44,281 nt of DNA from a virus: positions 39,880 through 84,160 of IMG/VR virus record IMGVR_UViG_3300030102_006169, one strand, 5' to 3'. How positions within the stretch are numbered: position 1 is the stretch's first letter; every line of letters begins with the position of its first letter. The translations under genes were made by a program, and so were the position numbers. Shown here one piece after another: positions 15,205-44,281 of this stretch. The notes beneath the pieces were generated by a model. It was not told where the DNA came from and did no database searches. It saw nothing but the letters and a program-made list of their open reading frames with translations.

Positions 15205-15205
<1 letters not shown>
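8939..15205 (+). CDS. Giant tail fibre with beta-roll repeats and S74-type chaperone domain
   Basis: This 2088-residue fibre begins with a short attachment segment. Residues about 68-150 hold a module also present in the gene at 24029 (TQQLTFTNTTGG...). Shaft motifs of the type GIGTDTPTEKLHI recur. Two long near-copies occupy about residues 338-469 and 989-1123 (FKMEE...RMYAGQDADGG). Three beta-roll arrays with I-I-G-G repeats lie near 538-784, 1368-1487 and 1585-1708. At residue 1896 begins SDSRCKFNI, the usual opening of the intramolecular chaperone domain (Peptidase_S74), whose Ser promotes self-cleavage after trimer folding; it continues through YGFKVDDF and DLIPFMVEGIKQL. About 70 further residues follow, which is unusual. 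The stop overlaps the next ATG by one base (TAATG). Confidence 0.8.
9952..10345 (+). repeat. Fibre shaft module, copy A
   Basis: This stretch of about 390 bases in the 8939-15205 gene is repeated with high nucleotide similarity at 11903-12305. Shared marks include GACTTCAAAATGGAAGA and AGGATGTATGCAGGACAAG. It is a coding, in-frame duplication. Confidence 0.7.
11903..12305 (+). repeat. Fibre shaft module, copy B
   Basis: This is the second copy of the module at 9952-10345. It is followed about 620 bases later by another duplicated segment (12932-13070, matching 10441-10580), so a larger block seems to have been duplicated within the gene. Confidence 0.7.
14624..14970 (+). other. S74-type intramolecular chaperone domain
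   Basis: This encodes residues 1896-2011 of the fibre. The opening S-D-x-R-x-K-x-N-I is the recognised start of the self-cleaving trimerisation chaperone; the expected cut is at the Ser (1896). The Leu usually found before Lys is Cys here (R-C-K). Confidence 0.65.
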
Positions 15206-21933
<6,728 letters not shown>

Positions 21934-33860: not shown

Positions 33861-34271
33861 ATGATGAAAAGAAACATAATAAAAAAAATTTTAAGAGAAG
33901 AAACTACTTACGAAGTAGAAAAAAATCTTTTTCCATATACTAAAACTGATACACATACGTCTACTGATATTGCCGTAGGTTTAATGCATAAAGCAATGAA
34001 TCATTTAGCATCTGCACTTAGAGATATAGAATCTGCAATACAATTCGCTTATGAAGCGGATACCAATAATGAAGAACTTATTGAGGGATTAGAGGATATT
34101 AGAAAATCTTTACTTCATGGTAGTGGACAAGGTGCGGGATGGAATGGTACAGAAGAACATGATAATATAATTAATGAATTAGGTTCATTAATTGAAAAGT
34201 ATAGTGACGGTAACGATAACTTTAATCTAAATGGTTCTCACGATCAGAAAGCTCCTGAAGGTACTCCTTAA
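33861..34271 (+). CDS. Small helical hypothetical protein
   Basis: This 136-residue protein starts MMKRNIIKKILREE. Two adjacent ATG codons (33861 and 33864) are possible starts. The centre is helical (GLMHKAMNHLASALRDIESA, about residues 40-59, then ELIEGLEDIRKSLL). A GSGQGAGWNG loop and a polar tail follow. No known family is recognised. It stands alone between two leftward genes and its last 50 bases overlap the 3' end of the oxygenase-glutaredoxin gene in the opposite direction. Possible virion protein given the late-type element, but no evidence for a specific role. Confidence 0.6.
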   Translation: MMKRNIIKKILREETTYEVEKNLFPYTKTDTHTSTDIAVGLMHKAMNHLASALRDIESAIQFAYEADTNNEELIEGLEDIRKSLLHGSGQGAGWNGTEEHDNIINELGSLIEKYSDGNDNFNLNGSHDQKAPEGTP

Positions 34272-35148
34272 TCATATTTACCCCATCATCAATAGTTTTA
34301 AATGATTTATCAGGTAAAAATGCTTTTTTTCCTATAATTACTGCAGGTAAAAAATCACTACCAACTTTTTTTGAAAAGGATTCATATAAAACTTCATTTT
34401 CTTTTGCGTCTGTATCTATTTCTTTAAAATCTATATTAGATTCTTTAAGTTGTTTTTTTAGGTTATCACAATGTGGACAACCTTGCATACTAAATACTAT
34501 TGGTATTGTTTTCATAATTATTTTTTCTGTATCTTTTATTTCTTTATTATAATGACGTTCATATTTGTTTATTATAGGTTCAATAGCGAATAAAATCAAT
34601 AGTTTAAAAAAACTTTTTATTTTTTTTATGAAAGTTTTATTTTTGTTAAGTCTTACATTAATAGTGTATCTAACCCCATTTTTTATAGGTAATGCTCCAT
34701 GCCAACTCTTTATTTTTCTACCTGAAAATAAAAGAGCGTTTCCCACACCAAATTCTGAAGCATGTGCAGTTTTTTTCAACAACGGAAATACAGTACCACT
34801 ACCTTCATAATTATCATTAATAAAAATTAAAATGGTATAATCATCTCCATCGTAATGATGGGGCATAGAAGGTGCATCTTTAGTATATCTAAGACCGGCA
34901 GATCTTGTTACGGTATAATCTTTTAATTTTGGTATTTTTTTAATCTTATTTACTATAAGTTCATGTACTTCAGGAAATGTATCATTTAATGTAGATTCAT
35001 AAACTGAAAGTCTAAAACTTCCATGATTTACAGTTAGTCCGAATTGATGTAAATTAGTTTCAAATAAATTCTCTATTTTTTTTGCTTCTTCTTTAGAAAA
35101 TATATTAATATTTTCCCATACCATTTTATTTTTCCACATCATTTTCAA
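34222..35148 (-). CDS. Fused 2-oxoglutarate/Fe(II) oxygenase and glutaredoxin-like protein
   Basis: This 308-residue protein joins two redox domains in one frame. Residues about 10-167 form a prolyl-4-hydroxylase-type double-stranded beta-helix. The iron ligands are in H98-Y-D100 and H150 (SWHGALP), and R160 (GVRYTINVRL) is placed to bind 2-oxoglutarate. GSGTVFP and GNALLFSG are also typical of the family. A basic, partly hydrophobic linker (FFKLLILFAIEPI, about 181-193) follows. Residues about 212-300 are glutaredoxin-like, with active site C224-P-H-C227 (FSMQGCPHC) and the cis-Pro region FLPAVIIG. An internal Met at 212 could give a separate glutaredoxin. The start overlaps the helicase stop by 23 bases, so the two are co-translated. 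Candidate substrates include phage or host proteins; see findings. Confidence 0.85.
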   Translation of the reverse strand: MKMMWKNKMVWENINIFSKEEAKKIENLFETNLHQFGLTVNHGSFRLSVYESTLNDTFPEVHELIVNKIKKIPKLKDYTVTRSAGLRYTKDAPSMPHHYDGDDYTILIFINDNYEGSGTVFPLLKKTAHASEFGVGNALLFSGRKIKSWHGALPIKNGVRYTINVRLNKNKTFIKKIKSFFKLLILFAIEPIINKYERHYNKEIKDTEKIIMKTIPIVFSMQGCPHCDNLKKQLKESNIDFKEIDTDAKENEVLYESFSKKVGSDFLPAVIIGKKAFLPDKSFKTIDDGVNMIKEYLQELSDRENHLD

Positions 35149-39131: not shown

Positions 39132-41957
39132 ATGGCTTCAACAAATAGAATTTTCGTTAGTCCAGGTGTTTTTACATCAGAAAAGGATTTAACATTCGTA
39201 ACAAGACAAGTGGGGGTAACTACATTAGGTTTACTAGGGGAAACACCTAAAGGTCCTGCATTTGAACCAGTATTCATTTCTAATTATGATGAATTCACAT
39301 CATATTTTGGTAACCTAAACCCTGAAAAATATAAAGGTAATGGATATCCAAAATATGAACTTAACTATATAGCTAGATCGTTTTTAACACAAACAAATCA
39401 ACTTTATGTTAGTAGAGTATTAGGATTATCAGGATATAAAGCAGGTAATGCTTGGTGTATTACATTGGATGCAGAGTTTGATCCATCAACAGAAGAAGTA
39501 ATAGGTACTACTTCTTATCCTACATTATTAACTTATAGTGCGAGTACAGGTGGAACACCAGTTACAATGACATTTAGTGATCCTCTTTTACAAGAATTAT
39601 ATGATCAAGGGGAAATTAGTAATAGTTTTTCTGCAATAGGTTTAAGTGCAACTGGTGATACTATATCAATAACTTCACCTAAATATATAGAAGTGGGTAG
39701 TGACTTTTCTGGTGCTACTTTCTCTATGGAAGTTATCGCAACATCTGGTTCTACACCAGGTTTTGTAACAGGTGTTACTTCAGGTACGGTAATAACTTAT
39801 ACTGCATCATCTTATAATATTGATGGTAGTGTGGTTGCCACTTTAAGATCTAGAGGTAATTATGGTGGAGATCAAATATTAGATTACACAGTATCAGGTA
39901 TAACAGATGTAAGTATGTCAAATACTTCGGCAATTGTAACTAATCCTTTTGGTAGTTTTACAATAAATGGTACAACAAGTAGTGGTGTTGACTTTGACTA
40001 TAATGTGTCATTAGATAAGACTAAAAAGAACTATTTACCTAATGTTTTTGGTGTTAGTTCACAAGATAAAGAAACAGAACTTTTTGTAGAAGAATTGTTT
40101 ATTAACAGTTTAGATGATTTAAATACTGCTGGTAAAGTAAGAGGTTTAAACATTGATTTTGTTAGAATAAGTGCAGATTCTACTTATAATTTAAGTAATT
40201 ATGAAGAAAAATATCAGTCTGCAGCTTCCCCATACGTATTATCTGAATTAAGGGGTAATAAACTTCAGAGATTATTTAGATTTATTACAATATCTGATGG
40301 TAATGCGGCTAACAGAGATATTAAATTTTCTATTATCAACATTAAACCAGATGAAAAAACATTTGATTTAATAGTAAGAAGATATAATGATAATGACGCC
40401 AATCTAAGTGTTTTAGAGAAATTTTCTAAACTTTCTTTAGACCCTACAGATAACGGATTTATTGGTAGAAAAATTGGTACGTCAGATGGTGAATTCCCAT
40501 TAAGAAGTAATTATATTATGGTAGATATGGCAACCGATTACCCAACTAATGGTGTACCTGCAGGTTTTGAGGGAGTACAAGTCAGAGACTATATCGGTGA
40601 TACTACGGCATTACCACCACAAATAGAGTATGGTACAAAATACCCTTCATTGAATAACTCACAAATAAGAAAATACTATTTAGGTCTTAATACGACTATT
40701 GGTGTAGACCAAGATTTCTTCGATTACAAAGGATTAGACGCAGTAACTAAAGTAGCGTATACTGGTAAATCGGATGGTTTTCACTTAGACGTAAACGCAA
40801 AAGGGGCAGAAATATCAGCAGGTAATGATAGTTATTTTCCATCATTACAAGTAGGTATATCAGCATTTACTACTGAAGCATCTTTACAAAGTGGGCCATA
40901 TGAAAAAGTAACTGCTAGGAAATTTACTTTCGCACCATACGGTGGTTTTGATGGTTGGGATGTGTATCGTTTAGACAGAACAAATACTGACTCATATACC
41001 AAAACTGGTAGTAAGGGTAATGAAGGTTTACTTAATGGAACGTTTACAACTTATACTACTTCTGAAGGAGATGATGGTATAACTTCAGATTACTTTGCAT
41101 ATTTAGAAGGAATATATACTTATAATAATCCAGAAGCAGTAAATATAAATGTTTTTGCAACACCAGGATTAGATTTAAGAGATCAACCTTCCTTAATTGA
41201 TGCAGCGGTTGATATGGTTGAAAATGATAGAGCAGATTCATTGTATGTAATTACTACACCAGATACTAGTAGCGATGGAGAAACTGTTTTAACACCAGAT
41301 GAAGCAACAGGAATATTAGATGATTCAGGAATAGATAGTAACTATTCTGCAACTTACTTCCCTTGGTTACAGATGAATGATACAGAAAATAATCAATACA
41401 TTTGGTTACCACCAACATTAGAAGTTGTTAGAAACATTGCATTAACGGATAACGTGGCGTTCCCTTGGTTCGCAGCAGCTGGTTTAAACAGAGGTACTAC
41501 AAATGCAATTAAAGCGAGAACAAAATTAACTTTAGATCAAAGAGATGATTTATATGAAGGAAGAATTAATCCAATGGCAACATTCTCAGATGTAGGTGTT
41601 TGTATTTGGGGTAATAAAACCTTACAATCTAAAGATACGGCACTTAACAGAATTAATGTTAGAAGATTGTTATTACAAGCTAGAAAACTTATTTCGGCAG
41701 TATCTATTAGATTATTATTCGAACAGAATGATGATGTTGTAAGAAATCAATTCCTTTCATTAGTTAATCCAATATTGGATAATATTAGAAAAGAGAGAGG
41801 TTTAACTGACTTTAGAGTTGTATTAGATGATACACCAGAATCTATTGATAGAAATGAATTAAACGGTAGAATATTCATTAAACCAACCAGATCTTTAGAA
41901 TACATTAGTATTGAATTTAATATTACTAATACTGGAGCATCTTTTGATGATATCTAA
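39132..41957 (+). CDS. Contractile tail sheath protein (gp18-like)
   Basis: This 941-residue sheath subunit is longer than T4 gp18 (659). The N-terminus (SPGVFTSEKDLTFVTRQVGV, residues about 10-29, then GLLGETPKGPAFEP and YDEFTSYFGNL) is typical of sheath proteins. The C-terminal core domain is also typical: WGNKTLQ (about 827), NVRRLLLQARKLISAVS (about 843-859), QFLSLVNPILDNIRKERGL and the final RIFIKPTRSLEYISIEFNI. Residues about 115-330 form a beta-rich Thr/Ser/Gly insertion that could be a surface domain. Sheath subunits stack around the tail tube and contract to drive DNA injection. It is transcribed alone, between the operator region and a hairpin terminator, which allows very high expression. 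Confidence 0.93.
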   Translation: MASTNRIFVSPGVFTSEKDLTFVTRQVGVTTLGLLGETPKGPAFEPVFISNYDEFTSYFGNLNPEKYKGNGYPKYELNYIARSFLTQTNQLYVSRVLGLSGYKAGNAWCITLDAEFDPSTEEVIGTTSYPTLLTYSASTGGTPVTMTFSDPLLQELYDQGEISNSFSAIGLSATGDTISITSPKYIEVGSDFSGATFSMEVIATSGSTPGFVTGVTSGTVITYTASSYNIDGSVVATLRSRGNYGGDQILDYTVSGITDVSMSNTSAIVTNPFGSFTINGTTSSGVDFDYNVSLDKTKKNYLPNVFGVSSQDKETELFVEELFINSLDDLNTAGKVRGLNIDFVRISADSTYNLSNYEEKYQSAASPYVLSELRGNKLQRLFRFITISDGNAANRDIKFSIINIKPDEKTFDLIVRRYNDNDANLSVLEKFSKLSLDPTDNGFIGRKIGTSDGEFPLRSNYIMVDMATDYPTNGVPAGFEGVQVRDYIGDTTALPPQIEYGTKYPSLNNSQIRKYYLGLNTTIGVDQDFFDYKGLDAVTKVAYTGKSDGFHLDVNAKGAEISAGNDSYFPSLQVGISAFTTEASLQSGPYEKVTARKFTFAPYGGFDGWDVYRLDRTNTDSYTKTGSKGNEGLLNGTFTTYTTSEGDDGITSDYFAYLEGIYTYNNPEAVNINVFATPGLDLRDQPSLIDAAVDMVENDRADSLYVITTPDTSSDGETVLTPDEATGILDDSGIDSNYSATYFPWLQMNDTENNQYIWLPPTLEVVRNIALTDNVAFPWFAAAGLNRGTTNAIKARTKLTLDQRDDLYEGRINPMATFSDVGVCIWGNKTLQSKDTALNRINVRRLLLQARKLISAVSIRLLFEQNDDVVRNQFLSLVNPILDNIRKERGLTDFRVVLDDTPESIDRNELNGRIFIKPTRSLEYISIEFNITNTGASFDDI

Positions 41958-41978: not shown

Positions 41979-42004
41979 AAAACCCACTATATGTGGGTTT
42001 TTTT
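41979..42004 (+). terminator. Rho-independent terminator after the sheath gene
   Basis: The stem AAAACCCAC (41979-41987) and GTGGGTTTT (41993-42001) encloses a TATAT loop, and the T run continues to 42004. It starts 21 bases after the sheath stop. It is the only convincing hairpin terminator seen in the window. Confidence 0.85.
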
Positions 42005-42026: not shown

Positions 42027-44281
42027 ATGAGTTTAAATGAACAATCTAAAAATTTTGATGGGGAAATGGGACCTACCCGTAAAGTAGATATGAATTACGG
42101 TTGGTTATCTACTAACAGTAATTATAGGGATGGTGTAGGTAAACAAGATAAATATTTGTGGAAATTTGGTGGTAAGGGGTTTCATTCTAGTTATTTTTGT
42201 CCAAAATACAATCAATTAGGTGATAATAAATCATTACCTAATAAAGAGATAAAAGAGTTTAGAGATTTAATATTTAAATTAGCAGGAAATCCTAGTGGAC
42301 CTTCTTTTACAGGTGCAAAAACTATGCAATATAATGATTTTATAGTTAAGGGATTACAAAAGTATAGAGATACGGTAGTACCTACTAAAAATTGGGACGA
42401 TAATCAAAAAAGGTATACTAAGACCATGCTTAATAACTTCATAAACTATATAGATGGAAAAGAATATGCGACATTATGTGATTATACTTCTGTTGAAGAT
42501 ATTATTGGTCATTCTCATGAGTTAATATATGAAAATAGACATGAAATTTTAGATATTGCTGCCCTTATATTTGCATTCATTCCTGGCGGTATCGTTATTT
42601 CTGGTGTAATAGAGTTAGCTAATGGTGCTTTATATATTAAAGAAGGAGATCCAGTAACAGGTGGAATCTCAATAATATTTGCATTTCTACCTTTTCTTAA
42701 TAAAATACCCGGTTTTGAAAAGGTTTCTACTAAAATAATGTTACCTATAATTGAGAAACTACGTAAAGGTCAAGAATTAACTAAACAACAATTTACTTTT
42801 CTTCAAAAATTTATAAACGATTTAATAACACATAAAAAACTTATCACAGATAAAATTGGTTTTTTAAAAAAACAAAAAGAAATATTTTTAGAAAATGGTG
42901 GTACAGAAGAATTATATAGCAAATATTTAAAAGAAGTTTTAGAAGGTAAAAAAACTAAAGAAGAGTTTTTTTCTTTACTGAAGGGTAGTGTTAAAAAACC
43001 ACCAATAAAAAAAATAGGGGTAGTTAAAATTGCAAAAGAAAAAATAGAAGAAATAAAAAATGTTTTTAAACAAAAGGGTTGGGATGATGTTTGGGGTTAT
43101 GACGGTGAGACGGGCGATCCCAATTTTATTGAGACTATAATGAATATTGATGGTGTAGAAACAAAAGTTAAATTAACAGTAAGTGATTATGGGCCTCATA
43201 GACTTAAGGGTAAGGGATTAGAAAGATATGATTTAAAGGCTCAAAATGCTGCGGGAGTACGTCTAACGGATGATGAGGGAGTTGATTGGGTTATTTTGAG
43301 ACCTGGATCTCATAAGACGTTTGACGATATTTTATTTTCGTTAGAACATGAATTAGTACATGTCATACAACCATCTAAAATGAGTAATAAGTTATCATCT
43401 TCTTATGTAACGGATACAGAGATAAAAAATATGAATTTTGGAAATGTGGTAAAAACGTTGAGTAAATACCCTAAACACGTTAAGTTAAATCATTTTAAAC
43501 GAGCAATATATCACAAAGCACTGGGTAAATGGTCAAAGCTAAGAAAATATGAGGATGATTTTATTAAAAACTTTGTGGCGGATGAGGATGAGGTTATGTT
43601 TAGGGAAAGTTATGATTTATGGTTTAAAGAAAAAGGATCCAAAATAGACAATCCTTGGTTAAAAACTATGTTCGATGAATTAAAGGAAGTTGATAGCCGG
43701 TATACCGATTATAATCAATTTTATAAGAATTTTTTAAACAAAAGTGAGGAAGAGGTTGATAAGGTATTTAAAATTTATTTAAATAGTACTGATAAGTCCC
43801 ATCAATCAATAGTACGAGATATTTTACATAATGTCGGCTATACTGAACACCAATGGGAAATAGAAGCAAATTTATCGCCTTTTATTAGTAGTTTAATTGA
43901 CTACGCTAAAAAATCAATTAAACCTGAACAAGGTGAAATTACTAGTACCTTTATTAAAGATATGAAAAAGTGGTTAAAATCACTTGGTACTAATAACGAT
44001 TATAATGCTGCACGAACTTTAAGGGATTATCATGTAAGTGATAGTTTTTACAGGGAAATGTTAAATTATGGAAAATTATTTGATACTGATCCAGAAAAGG
44101 GTAAAAAAGTTGTAAACAAAATATACAAACAATTAGAAAATCTTAAAACATCAGGTTTAAAAGAATCTATGAAACCTAAAAAAATAATAATTAATCAACA
44201 CCAAAAAGGTTTATTAACGGAATTTAAAAAAAGAGCATATTCATTTGATTGGGACGATAATATTTTATTTATGCCCACTAA
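42027..44281 (+). CDS. Large HExxH metallopeptidase-like protein with HAD-like motif, C-terminus beyond the window
   Basis: Translation from the ATG at 42027 is open for 751 codons to the edge. The N-terminal 170 residues are polar (GKHELIYENRHE-like stretches rich in Asn, Tyr, Lys). Residues about 175-230 are hydrophobic with a helix-turn-helix look (IAALIFAFIPGGIVISGVIE, then ISIIFAFLPFL), recalling pre-toxin or membrane-active segments. A Lys-rich helical part (about 240-345) follows. A peptidase domain carries the zinc motif H441-E-L-V-H445, and E611/E613 in WEIEANLSPF are placed as a third ligand, as in gluzincins and ImmA/IrrE-like peptidases. Close to the edge, KIIINQHQKGLLTE leads into FDWDDNILFMPT (D741, D743), a HAD phosphatase motif I. 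It has its own promoter box after the sheath terminator. Function is unknown; a virion-borne or injected peptidase is one possibility. Confidence 0.7.
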   Translation, partial: MSLNEQSKNFDGEMGPTRKVDMNYGWLSTNSNYRDGVGKQDKYLWKFGGKGFHSSYFCPKYNQLGDNKSLPNKEIKEFRDLIFKLAGNPSGPSFTGAKTMQYNDFIVKGLQKYRDTVVPTKNWDDNQKRYTKTMLNNFINYIDGKEYATLCDYTSVEDIIGHSHELIYENRHEILDIAALIFAFIPGGIVISGVIELANGALYIKEGDPVTGGISIIFAFLPFLNKIPGFEKVSTKIMLPIIEKLRKGQELTKQQFTFLQKFINDLITHKKLITDKIGFLKKQKEIFLENGGTEELYSKYLKEVLEGKKTKEEFFSLLKGSVKKPPIKKIGVVKIAKEKIEEIKNVFKQKGWDDVWGYDGETGDPNFIETIMNIDGVETKVKLTVSDYGPHRLKGKGLERYDLKAQNAAGVRLTDDEGVDWVILRPGSHKTFDDILFSLEHELVHVIQPSKMSNKLSSSYVTDTEIKNMNFGNVVKTLSKYPKHVKLNHFKRAIYHKALGKWSKLRKYEDDFIKNFVADEDEVMFRESYDLWFKEKGSKIDNPWLKTMFDELKEVDSRYTDYNQFYKNFLNKSEEEVDKVFKIYLNSTDKSHQSIVRDILHNVGYTEHQWEIEANLSPFISSLIDYAKKSIKPEQGEITSTFIKDMKKWLKSLGTNNDYNAARTLRDYHVSDSFYREMLNYGKLFDTDPEKGKKVVNKIYKQLENLKTSGLKESMKPKKIIINQHQKGLLTEFKKRAYSFDWDDNILFMPT

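Follow-up and report, generated by a model that had tools for sequence, protein, structure and literature searches.

The stretch of viral DNA analyzed here (the window) comprises 44,281 nucleotides, bases 39880 to 84160 of the 84,160-base record IMGVR_UViG_3300030102_006169, which has no sequence beyond its 3′ end. Behind a tail sheath gene, it closes with an open reading frame (ORF) that joins a hydrophobic hairpin, a metallopeptidase-like region, and the start of a HAD domain. The locus thus raises the question of what such a fusion does for a phage and whether it acts as one protein or as several. We found that its two modules meet at a short tag that, in related phages, stands at the start of the separate HAD protein and of non-HAD proteins. 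Sequence comparison leads us to favor, with moderate confidence, the reading that a T4-like marine phage packages the fusion in its head as an effector polyprotein, to be cut by its prohead protease. The features concerned are listed below (a slash marks a putative cleavage site).

39132 to 41957, plus strand: tail sheath gene, upstream of the fusion gene
41979 to 42001, plus strand: terminator hairpin between the tail sheath gene and the fusion gene
42027 to 44279, plus strand: fusion protein ORF, residues 1 to 751 (751 codons), open at the record end; 989 amino acids (aa) in contig L002
42531 to 42695, plus strand: hydrophobic hairpin, residues about 169 to 223, with a glycine/proline turn and an EGDP loop; module common to 13 other distinct tagged phage genes
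43251 to 43952, plus strand: putative zincin-like metallopeptidase core, residues about 409 to 642, from the motif and the trimmed alignment (A4) with locus L051
43347 to 43361, plus strand: HELVH (H441 to H445), putative zinc site; HELTH in L051
43857 to 43871, plus strand: EIEAN (residues 611 to 615; E611, E613), candidate third zinc ligand; EIEPN in L051
44163 to 44168, plus strand: E713-S714 of LKE/S, possible first cut before the internal tag, from the sequence
44169 to 44222, plus strand: internal capsid-targeting-type tag, M715 to E732 (MKPKKIIINQHQKGLLTE), with a predicted prohead-protease cut after E732
44223 to 44279, plus strand: first residues of the HAD phosphatase-like domain (from F733; D741-W-D-D-N745), truncated at the record end

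One reading frame, completed in a second contig

A preliminary description of the window had noted a single frame of more than 751 codons with a DWDDN HAD motif at its cut edge and had advised extending the sequence. This was possible with L002 (IMGVR 3300012920_000026), a near-identical contig in which the ORF is complete at 989 aa. The extension added the whole HAD domain (residues 733 to 989); the motif begins at D741 as described, and the completed domain keeps the usual HAD motifs. No frameshift splits the parts in L002. As independent contigs, L002 and the window record share 97% identity over the 751 residues, and in both the fusion spans the junction. One complete copy of the window-type fusion was found (L002; L009 is the same contig), while L003 carries the first 341 codons. 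In the family-library scans, no Pfam or NCBIfam model exceeded its cut-off on the L002 fusion.

The HAD domain and the tag in front of it

The completed C-terminal domain is probably a phosphatase. Three motifs are invariant in 55 aligned sequences (D26/D28, T123-A-R125, and D228-D229-D230, alignment numbering). The structure model built from these 55 sequences reached a predicted local distance difference test (pLDDT) score of 86 and is compact from about residue 20. Confidence falls below 50 at model residues 1 to 5 and 16 to 18, the latter being T731-E732-F733 at the predicted cut, although the bacterial rows without a tag may by themselves lower the confidence at the tag. The best VIA-align match was the phosphatase of T4 Pnkp (5uj0; Z 11.2, root mean square deviation 3.2 Å, 131 aligned residues), followed by the same Pnkp protein (Z 9.9) and a capsule-synthesis enzyme (8.8), with HAD enzymes prominent among the matches. 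The likeliest activity would be that of a DNA/RNA-end or nucleotide phosphatase. A weak fold match to the Legionella effector Lem4 was not taken as a sign of function, and six unrelated Pfam families with one to five matches each in a 42-member HAD scan (best E 0.00032) were treated as chance.

In a scan for phage relatives of the domain, we took the best 80 of 150, kept 79 loci, and read 77 (L078 and L079 were missed by the first pattern). HAD is a separate protein in 75 of the 77, about 270 to 300 aa long where complete, and is fused in two, namely, L009 (the L002 contig) and L051. Searching prokaryote genomes with the HAD alignment gave 168 relatives, of which the best 80 were kept. One of these 80 loci lies in a Prochlorococcus assembly, equals IMG/VR contig L020 in length, and has the tag; the other 79 (L117 to L195), on contigs labeled mostly Kiritimatiellae, Lentisphaerae, or Verrucomicrobia, have none. 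The HAD family of those contigs has no clear Pfam or NCBIfam model.

At the start of most separate phage HADs stands a tag such as MKLKLTESQYKTLLE, which runs straight into FQKRAYSFDWDDN. Its general form is K-hydrophobic-x-hydrophobic-T/S-E-x-Q...LxE. At the window junction, MKPKKIIINQHQKGLLTE is followed directly by FKKRAYSFDWDDN, giving LLTE/F. Just before the fold, [LI]xE is found in 45 of 47 distinct phage leaders (both junctions included) and in 0 of 76 leaders of the bacterial set, which were cut at a nearby Met and are often shorter than the phage leaders. The tag core is distributed in the same way (45/47 versus 0/76, from 79 contigs), and the wider pattern [LIVM]xE occurs in all 47 phage leaders versus 15 of the 76.

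The tag marks the N termini of particular phage proteins

The tag was then counted over phage proteins at large, with ORFs called mechanically (ATG start, greedy longest) and homologues counted singly. Among 618 nonredundant ORFs, to which 852 were collapsed by identical C-terminal 60 residues, 99 carry the loose form of the tag at the N terminus, compared with 4.7 in shuffled N termini. Clustering that ignored the first 40 residues gave 238 families, 21 of which carry the tag in the majority of their members; by eye, about 17 of these are convincing and about 4 chance-like. The LxE lies 6, 7, or 11 residues past the Q in 4, 2, and 6 of these 21 families, respectively. The strict form stands at the N terminus of 62 of 765 phage ORFs in a larger set versus 0 of 597 ORFs of bacterial loci, and internally it occurs six times in the phage set and never in the bacterial loci; of the six internal matches, the one in L087 is chance-like and three belong to one family. 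Counted over 856 ORFs with their own 5′ ends, the 62 strictly tagged ones are 29 HADs and 33 non-HADs.

Control proteins were chosen by their later parts, complete 5′ ends only. The loose tag was present on 50 of 56 HADs in this set and on none of 19 sheaths, 42 tubes, 4 capsid proteins, 3 portals, 2 terminases, 2 proteases, and 3 DNA polymerases. One 112-aa acidic protein (L083:2132-2470) has a tag at each end.

A T4-type prohead protease is encoded by the same record

Genes for a T4-type prohead protease (G000:14184-14873; PF03420, E 6e-27) and for gp23 (PF07068, E 8e-63) lie in the window record, and each is present in 5 of the 13 records searched. The capsid protein of the window record reads NQASALLTE/ATDAQSSG around a putative cut site, LLTE/A, which is found in four records in all and is replaced by LINE/Q in the fifth; by analogy, we infer that the capsid protein is cut there. 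T4 gp21 cuts after L/I-x-E (PMC9026906), and T4 propeptide tags are 10 to 20 residues long (PMC9026906, PMC5694885). With good confidence, we predict that the tag serves both as a targeting signal and as a cut site. Cleavage at the window junction, LLTE/F, is somewhat less certain but still probable. A further cut may lie just upstream at LKE/S, and x-E-S also precedes the internal tag in L041, L051, and L108.

Since the window tag is internal (residues 715 to 732) and the N terminus of the fusion has none, it is a variant and not a plain member of the T4-type capsid-targeting sequences, which are N-terminal.

Extra modules beside the tag, probably inserted

The DNA of L002 and that of L011, a locus with a separate HAD, are 98.9% identical through the sheath gene and 95.3% identical from the tag onward. 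Between these blocks lie 2.2 kb in L002 and 38 bases in L011. We read the 2.2-kb module as a probable insertion because most loci lack it. About half of the tag residues differ between the two loci, but the hydrophobic positions, the Q, the LL, and the E are kept, and the LL codons differ only synonymously.

A second fusion occupies the same place between sheath and tube in L051, where the order is leader MGFFIYKQYLYYM, tag, peptidase region, second tag, HAD; in L052, the same leader MGFFIYKQYLYYM is followed by a tag and a separate HAD. L041 has an N-terminal tag and another near residue 638. An internal tag is also present in all eight loci found (L214 to L221) of a second polyprotein family, members of which are L108:46-1575 and G008:133075-134367. 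Its C-terminal domain looks ParB-like by eye and has no Pfam match. The linker takes one form in three of the eight loci; in the other five, an LxE-type stretch is followed by 175 to 205 extra residues and then the tag. One of these five is the L002 contig, where the ORF starts at the contig edge.

The first module: a putative metallopeptidase behind a membrane hairpin

We consider it fairly probable, from motifs and one homologue, that the first module is a peptidase. The HELVH site proposed earlier is indeed at residues 441 to 445 and is conserved as HELTH in L051, a diverged homologue. EIEAN at 611 to 615 is likewise present and conserved there; as for its suggested role in zinc binding, it stays a candidate ligand. 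In the trimmed alignment, the core of L002 is 31% identical to that of L051, with HELxH, the following Q, and EIExN conserved; this pair was trimmed after the motif had been seen and is the sole alignment that lines up HExxH. The pairwise BLAST alignment and the first, untrimmed global alignment misplaced HExxH and left the motifs unaligned. Local BLAST linked the two peptidase regions with an E of 2e-4 among 2,012 ORFs. An HExxH of this kind was found in just seven ORFs of the local set. The L051 region also gave a weak capP match (E 0.009), which we take as a lead only. Beyond L002, L003 (first 341 codons only), and L051, no further peptidase relatives were found, so that neither a deep alignment nor a usable model could be obtained; the single-sequence model of the 989-aa protein (mean pLDDT 37.5) was too poor to show zinc geometry.

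Between the window and L002, residues 346 to 660 (window 43062 to 44006) accumulated 18.5 nonsynonymous versus 2.5 synonymous changes, a pN/pS of 1.7, compared with 0.3 to 0.5 over residues 1 to 345 and no change at all in codons 661 to 751. The excess in the peptidase part possibly reflects diversifying selection and thus an arms race.

The hydrophobic stretch noted earlier is evident from Kyte-Doolittle values of the L002 copy: averaged over 19 residues, hydropathy peaks in segments beginning at residues 177, 174, and 180 (means of 2.47, 2.29, and 2.16), and a second, weaker hydrophobic arm follows the first. An iterated profile of this hairpin found 13 other distinct genes in related phages, all 13 with an N-terminal tag, although several are near-identical or are orthologues from the locus after the tube. 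Presumably, the hairpin resembles the stretch before the toxin domain in polymorphic toxins; no pretoxin or toxin model exceeded its Pfam or NCBIfam cut-off on the fusion. One tagged hairpin protein (L035:5474-6790) has a LysM domain over the Pfam cut-off (E 6e-5), which suggests contact with peptidoglycan.

A proposed course of packaging, cleavage, and injection

The sequences themselves establish the modules, the repeated occurrence of the tag, its lack in the bacterial HAD relatives, the additional module beside it, and a protease gene in the same record. Packaging, cleavage, injection, and both enzyme activities are inferred and would fit together as follows. The precursor would consist of module 1 (residues about 1 to 710), in which a membrane hairpin precedes a zincin-like metallopeptidase, and module 2 (733 to 989), a HAD phosphatase that, by its predicted fold, most resembles the T4 polynucleotide 3′-phosphatase. 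The tag between them would draw the precursor into the prohead core, where the gp21-type phage protease would cut at LLTE/F, and perhaps also at LKE/S, during maturation. Both enzymes would then remain in the head and enter the host along with the DNA, as the tag and the gene neighborhood suggest, and the hairpin may help the peptidase module at the host membrane. Of the roles suggested by the preliminary description, an injected effector or antidefense protein or a virion maturation enzyme, the injected effector is the best class, and the maturation enzyme is less likely because the same record has a separate T4-type prohead protease.

More tentatively, the tag may be an address-and-cut cassette joining effector modules, so that arsenals are translated as polyproteins and cut apart in the head. 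New modules would be inserted beside a tag or bring their own copy, and at least two unrelated families would follow this plan, the peptidase-HAD fusions and L214 to L221 with its ParB-like C-terminal domain.

Several observations weigh against the packaged and cleaved polyprotein. The window tag fits the loose pattern only, and loose internal matches occur at similar rates in phage and bacterial proteins (28 in 270,631 versus 14 in 199,218 residues, or 10.4 versus 7.0 per 100,000); the claim therefore rests on position and homology, not on a pattern count. The P1′ residue is Phe at the junction LLTE/F versus Ala after the capsid-protein site, and the window fusion is the sole hairpin gene without an N-terminal tag. 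The tag is lacking on the HAD relatives in L006 and L008, two very large phage records, which makes it a trait of a phage group rather than of the HAD family; in the closest cultured relative, the pattern is absent from head-region proteins except for one chance-like match. With 92 to 100% identity to the query, the eight second-family loci represent few independent events. The pN/pS of 1.7, based on few changes, could also mean relaxed constraint. As to the HAD fold, the VIA-align match to Pnkp spans about half of the model, and Foldseek matches to solved structures were weak (best E 0.066, none below E 0.001), with nine viral models below that threshold; the ATG at the start of the window tag also fits separate translation.

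Alternative explanations

Could the fusion pass uncut into the particle and then into the host, with a tag that is a remnant of an old HAD start and now serves as a linker? The virion RNA polymerase of N4 contains a metallopeptidase domain and is packaged without processing (PMC5512222). An ATG is kept at the tag start (M715), as a recent fusion would have, and the identity of codons 661 to 751 in the window and L002 is also compatible with this. Such an uncut protein is nevertheless unlikely in our view, given that the tag has kept its hydrophobic, Q, and LxE positions through the divergence from L011 described above, that L051 has two tags, and that every locus found of the second polyprotein family has an internal one. 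The same ATG, at 44169, was suggested in the preliminary description as the start of a separate in-frame HAD product. The HAD is indeed a separate gene in sister phages, and both an internal start described in T4 gene 21 (PMC9026906) and the internal tag of L041, which has an ATG with GGGAG upstream, give the idea some footing. Cleavage is likelier than a start at this ATG because the 60 codons upstream of the L051 tag contain neither ATG nor GTG and offer only TTG, 16 and 58 codons away, as alternatives. As Shine-Dalgarno-like motifs are scarce in these phages (5/128), they say little about ATG 44169. Overall, we regard two translation products as rather improbable.

Release of the HAD by the embedded metallopeptidase instead of the prohead protease is more doubtful still. 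Autoproteolysis by embedded zincins has been proposed for polyvalent proteins and for P1 DdrB (PMC5512222), but the tag is on far more proteins than the seven local ORFs with HExxH, the separate HAD included, and it ends in L/I-x-E, the prohead-protease form. Finally, a chimera or a lost stop codon might have joined two genes during assembly, as could be suspected from the fact that most sister phages read have the HAD only as a separate protein and that one complete fusion copy was found. With two separate contigs, 97% identical and both fused, and with a second fusion in L051 at the same sheath-tube position, we rejected a frameshift or chimera as extremely improbable. The packaged polyprotein cut by the prohead protease thus remains the explanation that we prefer.

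Relation to known systems

The system appears to work like a polyvalent protein with T4-type targeting and is partly new, the new part being tags that separate modules. Polyvalent proteins of phages and conjugative elements (Iyer et al. 2017, PMC5512222) are likewise large multidomain proteins of mobile elements, with expected codelivery with DNA and a zincin-like hub domain. Their published processing is by embedded peptidases, whereas repeated tags with predicted prohead-protease sites join the modules here. As for the several catalytic domains of that class, the HAD is recognized by motifs and fold, and the putative peptidase is suggested by its motif and one homologue.

The T4 internal proteins and Alt, which are cut by gp21, also have a short N-terminal tag ending in L/I-x-E on otherwise unrelated packaged proteins (PMC9026906), and the presence of a T4-type protease in the same genome as the tag is a further T4-like trait. 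Unlike in T4, the tag sequence is K-h-x-h-T-E-x-Q (h, hydrophobic) and is also found inside a fusion of two large modules; the T4 sites described in the accessible part of PMC9026906 are those of propeptides at protein ends or of core proteins cut into fragments. Head maturation in SPN3US and phiKZ involves a gp21-like protease that cleaves several head proteins on the C-terminal side of x-x-E (PMC10052503, PMC5694885). Of the 14 mapped SPN3US sites, 13 remove N-terminal propeptides and one removes a C-terminal propeptide; in contrast to the cut predicted here, none mapped in the accessible text separates two large modules (PMC10052503). The head-packaged antirestriction proteins DarA, DarB, and DdrB of P1 include one thought to be processed, DarA, and the N-terminal 30 residues of DarB suffice for capsid targeting; the accessible part of that source describes no internal tag (PMC9024508), in contrast to the fusion. 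Among solved structures, the 3′-phosphatase domain of T4 Pnkp (PseT) comes nearest to the HAD model in fold (Z 11.2, 131 residues). Unlike Pnkp, the HAD has no kinase domain and carries a tag, and its sequence matched no solved chain below E 0.08.

A literature search that covered few subscription journals returned nothing on this tag, on internal targeting tags, or on prohead-protease cleavage of a multienzyme polyprotein. The processing of polyproteins by a capsid-maturation protease is usually linked to eukaryotic viruses, and bacteriophage examples would be added if our reading is true. The tag would then also allow injected proteins to be cataloged from sequence in uncultured phages, since any carrier would be expected to reside in the head and pass into the host, and the hairpin-peptidase and the HAD phosphatase would be concrete effectors named in this way.

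Gene neighborhood and further observations

In L002, the gene order is tail sheath, fusion, two small genes, tail tube, and a 942-aa protein. The terminator after the sheath gene, already pointed out in the preliminary description, is borne out by its folding energy (−14.4 kcal/mol, z −4.5, with none of 200 shuffles equally good), although the hairpin is absent from the output of a consensus terminator scan. The late promoter element ascribed to the fusion gene found no support: TWAAATA does lie upstream, but the motif is not enriched, being found in just 8 of 65 upstream regions versus 12.7 in shuffles. At two loci with a separate HAD (L011:3965-4000 and L106:11430-11466), the HAD start codon lies a few bases past the U-tract of the sheath terminator; its transcripts there therefore probably arise by read-through or processing.

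By capsid protein and protease, the best cultured relatives among the matches listed are Flavobacterium and Microcystis phages. In Flavobacterium phage immuto (L222, NC_055915), which infects Flavobacterium sp. LMO8, a different recurrent leader (MENFDLKKFLVENKLT.NS..LKE) is seen by eye on several proteins near the head genes, the T4-type protease begins with MNNPLLINVTPFKGLLTE, and an annotated 5′-3′ deoxyribonucleotidase has a leader ending in LLLE (by eye). Elsewhere in the window, the gene at 34222 to 35142 (minus strand) resembles, by eye, a 2-oxoglutarate hydroxylase fused to a glutaredoxin, compared with the separate glutaredoxin of G008 (G008:64303-64590). A 2,242-aa protein encoded at 15205 to 21933 (plus strand) contains long collagen-like runs and is probably a fiber.

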